Position numbers and translations under genes: made by a program | Origin: Acidobacteriota bacterium | GTDB lineage: Bacteria; Acidobacteriota; G020349885 | Assembly: GCA_020349885.1 (NCBI GenBank) | Contig: CP070701.1 | Location: 585,466-633,688, forward strand | Reading direction: 5' to 3' | Length of the DNA: 48,223 bases | Part shown: positions 41,119-43,856 of the stretch, one piece after another | Layout: the number at the start of each line of letters is the position of its first letter | How positions within the stretch are numbered: the stretch's first letter is position 1 | The notes under the pieces: model-generated | The model's database searches: none | The model's input: the letters and a program-made list of their open reading frames with translations, nothing else | What the model was told of the DNA's origin: nothing

Positions 41119-41916
41119 TTACGCCAGAAGCTCTTCCGTCGAGTGGAAGAAGCGGCACTCTGCGGTCGGGTAGAAGAGGCCGAAGGAAGGATCCAAAATC
41201 GCACGTTTGAGGTCGTCCTCCGTGACGTCTTTGTAAATGAGCGAGATTCGAAGCTCCCTGAGGCCGTAGCGCTCGCGGAGCGCATTGGCGAAGTAACGGA
41301 CATGCTCATGGCGGAAGGGGGACTCGCCTTCGCCCTTGAGTCCCCCGCTGCGCAGCTTCGAGAGGTCAAAGCCCATGAGGCCGCGCTTTCGAGGCGCGCA
41401 CTGGTTGGCCGCCTGGAAAATCTCCCGGTAGCGGGCGCGGTTATCGCTGTCCACGTATTCAAGCAGCGACACTTCAGGATGGGACGGATCCTGCGTGAGC
41501 ACCAGGGTAATATAGCAGTGGTCGCGGTCGAGCCGCACGCTCGAATCCACCGAGTCCCGTGCCAAGCCCACGACGAGGCCGTAGCGGGGCTCGATGCGGT
41601 AGAGGCTCTCCAGTTTCTGGCCCCGCAAGTCGATGCGAAAGCGCTTCGCGGTGTTTTCCAAAAGCTTGCCGCTGCTTCGATCCGTCCGGATGACGACGAA
41701 GGCCATCGTCTCGTCGCGCACCATATCGTACTGGTTGAAAAGGTAAATCGCCAACTCGTGCGCGACGCCGCCGGCCTCTTGCCGCCCCGAGAAAGCGACG
41801 TCGCGCAACTGCGCATCCGAGGGTAGATAGGCAACAGAGCTTTTCTCCTCATGGAGTCGATATGCAGTCAGAAAATCTTCGGCGGGCACATCGCGGTAGA
41901 GAATGCAATTCGGCAT
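41119..41916 (-). CDS. Conserved-looking protein of unknown function
   Basis: 265 residues from the ATG at 41916; the longer frame start lies at the promoter, so is rejected. No signal peptide or membrane segment; mixed alpha/beta composition. Segments such as ELAIYLFNQYDMVRDETMAF and RKRGLMGFDLSKLRSGGLKG look folded, but I recognise no family. First gene of a run with the lytic transglycosylase (10 nt gap) and the histidine kinase, so possibly envelope-related. Confidence 0.75.
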   Translation of the reverse strand: MPNCILYRDVPAEDFLTAYRLHEEKSSVAYLPSDAQLRDVAFSGRQEAGGVAHELAIYLFNQYDMVRDETMAFVVIRTDRSSGKLLENTAKRFRIDLRGQKLESLYRIEPRYGLVVGLARDSVDSSVRLDRDHCYITLVLTQDPSHPEVSLLEYVDSDNRARYREIFQAANQCAPRKRGLMGFDLSKLRSGGLKGEGESPFRHEHVRYFANALRERYGLRELRISLIYKDVTEDDLKRAILDPSFGLFYPTAECRFFHSTEELLA

Positions 41917-41940
41917 AGCCGTTTGGTACCGTGCAGTTTC

Positions 41941-41970
41941 AGTATAACAAAGCGTGAACACGGGTGTCAA
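41941..41970 (-). promoter_or_regulatory. Strong promoter of the unknown-transglycosylase-kinase operon
   Basis: Consensus TTGACA (41970-41965), 18-nt spacer, TATACT (41946-41941). The leader to the ATG at 41916 is about 18 nt. Confidence 0.75.
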
Positions 41971-42319
41971 AGACGCTGGCGCCGAAGCGTCTCCGGTTTT
42001 CCGCGTTTTTCGAAAAAATCTCTCTCCCCTCTATCATATGGAATAAAAGTTCCGCCCCCCAGCGAGTCGGAGCAAGTTTTACCTCGCAACGAGAAAGCGG
42101 TCGATAACTGCCTATAAACAAAGGGTTTTTTGGCGAGCACCTCATCGACAGGGAAAGCTCAAAAAAGAAGAGGCACGAAAACTTATGTTTGACCTGCACC
42201 CTCTTTCTCCGGAGGGCATGTCCCGACGCGAGCGCTTGCGCTGCAGGTCGGGATCCGTGTGGATCTGTTTCTCGGCGGATTGGAAAAAGGGCGCTAATTT
42301 TTTTCTTTGAAGCGGCGTC
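41971..42319. other. Non-coding stretch upstream of the gltA promoters
   Basis: About 350 bases with no convincing gene. It holds a CCCGAC/GTCGGG stem at 42222-42252 that encloses an inner GCGAGCGC/TTGCGC self-complement, and several A/T runs. A 67-codon minus ORF here (42142-42345) overlaps the promoter array and has no ribosome binding site. A small RNA is possible; no known family is recognised. Confidence 0.4.
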
Positions 42320-42327
42320 TTTTTCGC

Positions 42328-42357
42328 TTGCATTAAACGCCGCATTCAGGCTATAAT
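42328..42357 (+). promoter_or_regulatory. gltA promoter copy 1
   Basis: TTGCAT (42328-42333), 18-nt spacer, TATAAT (42352-42357). The best -10 of the three copies. The -35 lies inside a GCGGCGT/ACGCCGC inverted repeat (42312-42343). A downstream tail CCAACCAAAAAACGTGTCA is conserved in copy 3. Confidence 0.7.
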
Positions 42358-42418
42358 ATTCCTAAGACCCAACCAAAAAACGTGTCATCCTTGTTTCCGA
42401 TGGAACGCATTTTTCCGC

Positions 42419-42448
42419 TTGCATCAAACGCCGCTTTGAGGCTACCAT
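42419..42448 (+). promoter_or_regulatory. gltA promoter copy 2
   Basis: TTGCAT (42419-42424), 18-nt spacer, TACCAT (42443-42448). Same flanks as copy 1 (TTTTTC before, CAAACGCCGCTTTGAGGC between), but the downstream tail is missing. Confidence 0.6.
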
Positions 42449-42474
42449 GTTTTAGTGAAACATGCCTTTTTCTC

Positions 42475-42504
42475 TTGTATCAAACGTCGCGTTTAGGCTG
42501 TCAT
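42475..42504 (+). promoter_or_regulatory. gltA promoter copy 3
   Basis: TTGTAT (42475-42480), 18-nt spacer, TGTCAT (42499-42504). A degenerate copy of the same unit, followed by CCAACCGAAAAAAATGTCA. Nearest to the gltA ATG (42564). Confidence 0.5.
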
Positions 42505-42563
42505 GCTACTAAGCGCCAACCGAAAAAAATGTCACTCGGAACACCCCATAAGGAAGACAAAAC

Positions 42564-43856
<1,293 letters not shown>

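Follow-up and report, generated by a model that had tools for sequence, protein, structure and literature searches.

The citrate synthase gene in the window (the whole stretch of DNA analysed here, 48,223 nucleotides of an Acidobacteriota genome) is preceded by a sequence unit that occurs three times. Such an arrangement could be a multiplied promoter, a set of binding sites for a regulator, or the remains of a duplication, and the question is which of these best accounts for it. The explanation considered likely here is that the gltA leader holds three copies of one sigma-70-type promoter, which would stem from local duplication followed by divergence, with the first two copies, P1 and P2, feeding gltA. 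The features of the locus are given below; the two promoter scores of each unit are from a first and a retrained model, respectively.

41119-41970, - strand: divergent ORF, with a start more likely at 41916
42299-42563: promoter-array region between the divergent gene and gltA
42319-42387, + strand: unit 1 (P1), with T-tract, -35 TTGCAT at 42328-42333, 18-nt spacer and -10 TATAAT at 42352-42357; promoter scores 10.4 and 10.0
42411-42451, + strand: unit 2 (P2), with -35 TTGCAT at 42419-42424, 18-nt spacer and -10 TACCAT at 42443-42448, no tail; promoter scores 8.4 and 7.5
42466-42534, + strand: unit 3 (P3), with -35 TTGTAT at 42475-42480, 18-nt spacer and -10 TGTCAT at 42499-42504; promoter scores 2.95 and 3.15
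42564-43856, + strand: gltA, citrate synthase, 430 aa

The product of gltA is a citrate synthase (Pfam PF00285, E 8e-140; NCBIfam NF004126, above the cut-off). The divergent ORF had no family in Pfam and NCBIfam profile searches; its promoter, TTGACA-18-TATACT at 41970-41941, scores 11.5 under the genome's own promoter model. Between the divergent gene and the promoter array there is also a strong hairpin (42215-42262, -22.7 kcal/mol) without a T-run. A GTG-started frame of 74 aa (42382-42606), running through units 2 and 3 and overlapping the gltA start, was considered as a leader peptide and rejected, because the two units are 56 nt apart and hence in different frames.

The repeat is directly visible as a 41-nt unit in three direct copies, all on the + strand upstream of gltA, at 42320-42360, 42411-42451 and 42467-42507. 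The starts of the first and second copies are 91 nt apart, and those of the second and third 56 nt. An earlier, sequence-only reading had described a promoter-like unit at these three places, with -10 elements TATAAT, TACCAT and TGTCAT in that order and a fixed spacer of 18 nt, and this description was borne out. The -35/-10 hexamers are TTGCAT/TATAAT in copy 1, TTGCAT/TACCAT in copy 2 and TTGTAT/TGTCAT in copy 3. Across the three copies, 14 of 18 spacer columns are invariant, as are 5 of 6 in the -35, 3 of 6 in the -10 and 6 of 9 in the T-tract part. Copies 1 and 3 can be aligned over 69 nt (42319-42387 and 42466-42534) with 77% identity; this match extends beyond the -10 and takes in a CTAAG...CCAACC(A/G)AAAAAA tail (CCAACCAAAAAA in unit 1, CCAACCGAAAAAA in unit 3), and includes the CCAACC(A/G)AAAAAA sequence already noted as common to the two. 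Copy 2 has no such tail, and its similarity to the others is lost soon after the -10 (tail identities of 9/30 and 7/30). Two details of the earlier description needed correction: the T-tract of copy 2 is TTTTCC in register, and the spacer, although 18 nt in all copies, does not have the same text throughout – it begins TAAACG in copy 1 and reads CAAACGTCGC in copy 3. A promoter duplication should leave a gene preceded by copies of one sequence that all point the same way. This is the case here, with identities of 34/41 (copies 1 and 2), 31/41 (copies 1 and 3) and 32/41 (copies 2 and 3) on the same strand, and we infer that the units originated in this way.

The uniqueness of the repeat was likewise observed directly. 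The best self-match of the gltA leader scored 29, and none of 100 dinucleotide shuffles scored above 12. When up to 3 mismatches were allowed, the unit pattern had 3 matches within the window versus 0 expected. In the entire genome, a single contig of 2.4 Mb, the whole-unit pattern (up to 3 mismatches) and the spacer pattern each matched solely the three gltA sites; a BLAST-type search of the genome gave one extra weak match (stretch L118, E 0.57), sharing just 21 nt. The sequence-only reading had allowed that the units might prove to be a dispersed repeat, but spacer and unit are confined to the gltA leader, with no copies elsewhere in the genome. Among the 297 genomes searched (the source genome and 296 of the same phylum, all of other classes), the source genome alone contained the unit when up to 2 mismatches were allowed. 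The comparison with related gltA leaders that had been proposed could be made in part: none of 109 other citrate synthase upstream regions had a comparable repeat (best score 17 versus 29), with the limit that many of these proteins, from 29 same-phylum regions and 80 named contigs, are only 30-60% identical or are perhaps encoded inside operons.

Only three of the six bases of the -35 sequence TTGCAT agree with TTGACA, and a simple scan for consensus promoters picked up none of the three gltA copies. Both points count against the main reading, and a promoter model was for this reason derived from the genome's own genes. These were identified on the window and 20 stretches with a simple caller based on codon usage, and their upstream regions, with gltA excluded, served to train a two-block EM model that had TTGACA and TATAAT as its starting points. 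The result was TTGACA-(17/18)-TATAAT, with ca. 76 sites. Within the 400 nt before gltA, this first model scored the three copies at 10.4, 8.4 and 2.95 (ranks 1, 2 and 4); after retraining (848 kb, ca. 143 sites), the scores were 10.0, 7.5 and 3.15 (ranks 1, 2 and 3). This agreement with a model built on other promoters of the genome is an observation. When the leader was shuffled 500 times, a score of 10.4 was reached in 4 cases and two sites with a score of at least 8 in none. Two such sites were found in 5 of 178 upstream regions (188 minus 10 with N runs). The best score per region among these 178 had a median of 5.4 and a 75th percentile of 8.9 in the first model, which puts P1 and P2 within the range of the genome's ordinary promoters. 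In the retrained model, even the top site scores below P1 in 88% of 346 upstream regions.

Hexamers near TTGACA and TATAAT with a spacing of 17-18 nt, the mark of a sigma-70-type promoter, are present in copies 1 and 2 and doubtful in copy 3. The -10 of P3, TGTCAT, has a G at position 2 and lacks the A that has 98% of the weight in the model. Judged by score, P1 and P2 look functional, and P3 is a decayed copy, probably weak or dead. The earlier suggestion that a whole promoter was duplicated is supported by these sequence statistics, the copies having ranked 1, 2 and 3-4 in a model that excluded gltA.

Predicted transcription starts, 7 nt past the -10, are at ca. 42364, 42455 and 42511 for copies 1, 2 and 3, for predicted leaders of ca. 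200 nt from P1, 109 nt from P2 and 53 nt from P3. The base at this distance is the first A of CTAAG in both copies 1 and 3, and the repeat therefore preserves the expected start. In the proposed history, one housekeeping promoter would have been copied serially and locally to give three units that are now diverging. P1 (TATAAT) and P2 (TACCAT), which retain good scores, should both load RNA polymerase toward gltA, while the -10 of P3 (TGTCAT) would have decayed. Transcription from both P1 and P2, which we infer from these scores, would give two nested transcripts with leaders of ca. 200 and ca. 109 nt, and would most likely cause an additive, partly interfering rise in citrate synthase transcription. 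The most likely effect is raised transcription rather than a new regulator circuit. If the copies are active, they are a clear natural promoter amplification before a gene of central metabolism, in a lineage remote from those studied so far and with pntA (below) as a second case in the genome, and would allow study of how the copies of a duplicated bacterial promoter share or lose function. If they are inactive, they are a mere record of local duplication and decay.

A related explanation, that P1 works and the other two units are decaying duplicates without function, seems rather unlikely. The -10 is degraded in P3 and weakened in P2, which also weighs against the duplicated-promoter reading, since with impaired -10 elements in copies 2 and 3 there may be one promoter in practice. 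Differences between copies 1 and 3 are evenly spread (transitions are 10 of 16), and conservation is no different in the core than in the tail (31/39 versus 22/30, p = 0.58), as expected of a decaying duplication. However, the P2 score of 8.4 is still in the range of the genome's ordinary promoters, and this explanation overlaps the main reading.

A broader proposal is that this lineage boosts key metabolic genes by serial duplication of whole promoters, as a habit of the genome. The sample for this consisted of 346 upstream regions from the window and 40 stretches (848 kb, ca. 35% of the genome), each of at least 60 nt and with at most 10 N. Within single regions there were 57 pairs of promoters with the same spacing, and 4 of these had an in-register similarity of at least 0.55 – three at gltA and one at pntA – compared to 0.046% of 77,656 random pairs between regions. 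The pntA gene (stretch L131, 2777-3962, - strand) encodes the alpha subunit of NAD(P) transhydrogenase according to Pfam and NCBIfam, and directly before it is a 49-bp tandem promoter duplication with TTGCAA-17-TAAGCT twice (L131 4057-4008, - strand; ca. 1,504,008-1,504,057 on contig C1). As an independent second case within the genome, it speaks for the duplicated-promoter reading of gltA, and so do the similarity figures.

A model-free repeat search with a score cut-off of 17 covered the 276 regions that were 100 nt or longer, and 10 of them had repeats. Three of the ten, chosen after inspection, have promoter-like sequence in both copies: those before gltA, pntA and an EamA transporter gene (L146 5354-6257). 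The EamA repeat has 65 of 89 identical bases at a distance of 91 nt, with -10-like sequences TGGTAATAT and TGATACTAT whose promoter character was judged by eye only. This repeat (L146 5163-5342) also combines an extended -10-like sequence with a possible hairpin leader; it had no Rfam family, and could be a tandem regulatory RNA. The seven other repeats scoring at least 17 were excluded as promoters by eye, as palindromic, coding or ribosome-binding sequence:

L129: coding-like repeat, by inspection
L134, L136 (two) and L155: palindromic repeats, by inspection
L123 (two): excluded by inspection

At L134 9140-9265, a palindromic GTTCGTT..AACGAAC with AAAGGATTTCTTC occurs twice upstream of an elongation-factor-G-like gene. 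Repeated palindromic TTGCCG...CCCAGACTCTTAGTCTGGG units were also seen at L122 18370-18570, upstream of a gene for a TIG-domain protein, with similar words in L126.

Promoter models of the relatives had no clear motif, and these genomes were therefore compared by model-free repeat counts only. Such repeats were found in none of 450 upstream regions from three genomes of the same phylum (129, 191 and 130). The difference is pronounced for all repeats (10/276 versus 0/450, Fisher p = 6e-5), for which a duplication habit is suggested, and borderline for the promoter-like ones (3/276 versus 0/450, p = 0.055). A habit that extends to metabolic genes at large, with three copies at gltA, two at pntA and two at the EamA gene, is on this basis tentative and unlikely. 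If it were true, the copies would be spared or spent by selection, in a manner not seen in the other genomes of the phylum that were sampled.

The units might instead be repeated operators, with a transcription factor binding the AAACGYCGC-TT-AGGC spacers to control gltA and copy 1 as the only true promoter. The sequence-only reading had argued for a bound regulator because the spacer is more conserved than the -10, but with 14 of 18 invariant spacer columns versus 3 of 6 the difference is not significant (Fisher p = 0.31), and the tail of copies 1 and 3 is conserved like the core. With a conservation of 0.78-0.83, the spacer is better kept than the compared stretch as a whole, at pntA as well as in each of the three gltA pairs; at pntA and in the copy-2 pairs it also outlasts the 12-nt flanks. 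In the copy-2 pairs the hexamers are also better kept than the near flanks, which fits an operator too and is a point against the main reading. One degenerate dyad with its centre in the spacer stands out, with 16 of 30 cells paired versus a median of 22% for other centres; however, this centre was selected from many as the best, and the bases that form the dyad vary from copy to copy. Sites for a shared regulator should also be found before other genes, but the three matches in the genome are all at gltA, and there is therefore no regulon. On either strand, CGNCGTTT is about equally frequent upstream (0.42/kb) and in coding DNA (0.36/kb), and neither its counts nor the dyad gave a convincing or regulon-wide signal of an operator shared with other genes. 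The proposal of a bound regulator is thus not supported, and an operator array is quite improbable.

One further candidate within the leader is a hairpin:

42446-42475, + strand: weak hairpin, CATGTTTTAGTGAAACATG then CCTTTTTC, between units 2 and 3, -5.1 kcal/mol

This hairpin would form only in P1 transcripts and is a possible attenuator, and each unit starts with a T-run; a conditional leader in which P1 transcripts partly stop at the hairpin and T-run is nevertheless very improbable, as the stem is weak and was not called by a terminator scan, folding of the leader RNA is no better than in shuffles (z = -0.29), hairpins before the T-runs have energies that come no closer than about the best 5-10% of random pieces (this one is comparable to the best 10% of random 28-mers of the region), and there is no Rfam family. 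A structured RNA element in the gltA leader was rejected as well, with no Rfam match and folding not above shuffles; the Rfam search gave nothing at threshold, and a permissive search gave just two matches, with E 3 or worse and far below gathering scores.

The duplicated-promoter reading can be placed beside systems already described. In E. coli, gltA has more than one transcription start and is regulated by ArcA and others; its promoters are not known to be sequence duplicates. More than one start for citrate synthase is common to both leaders, with predicted starts in the leader described here, where the promoters are copies of one sequence. Searches of open-access literature listed no paper with duplicated gltA promoters in its title or abstract. 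The mycobacterial rrnA operons have a hypervariable multiple promoter region, with two promoters in M. tuberculosis and five in another mycobacterium, for which duplication has been invoked as the origin (PMC10218544). The gltA array is similar in having several promoters in series before one gene with duplication as the proposed origin (PMC10218544); the mycobacterial case differs in being an rRNA operon, not a TCA-cycle gene, with actinobacterial promoters and experimentally studied starts. The PR1 region of the E. coli kps capsule cluster has three tandem promoters that influence one another (PMC5738388), and resembles the gltA leader in having three sigma-70 promoters in one leader, with room for cross-talk. 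The gltA promoters are sequence copies of one another, while a likeness among the PR1 promoters is not stated in the part of that paper used here (PMC5738388). In synthetic constructs, promoters placed in tandem disturb one another when polymerases collide (PMC11339919), and given this interference and the cross-talk at kps, two or three gltA promoters need not simply add up. Promoter duplication and multiplication have been called well known for protein-coding genes of E. coli (PMC7967276). The earlier description of the array as unusual is fair for the phylum, with 0 of 450 upstream regions, but promoter multiplication as such is already known. The gltA array is real, yet it is a modest variation on ordinary tandem promoters – some of which have been ascribed to duplication – and a tidy further example of them.
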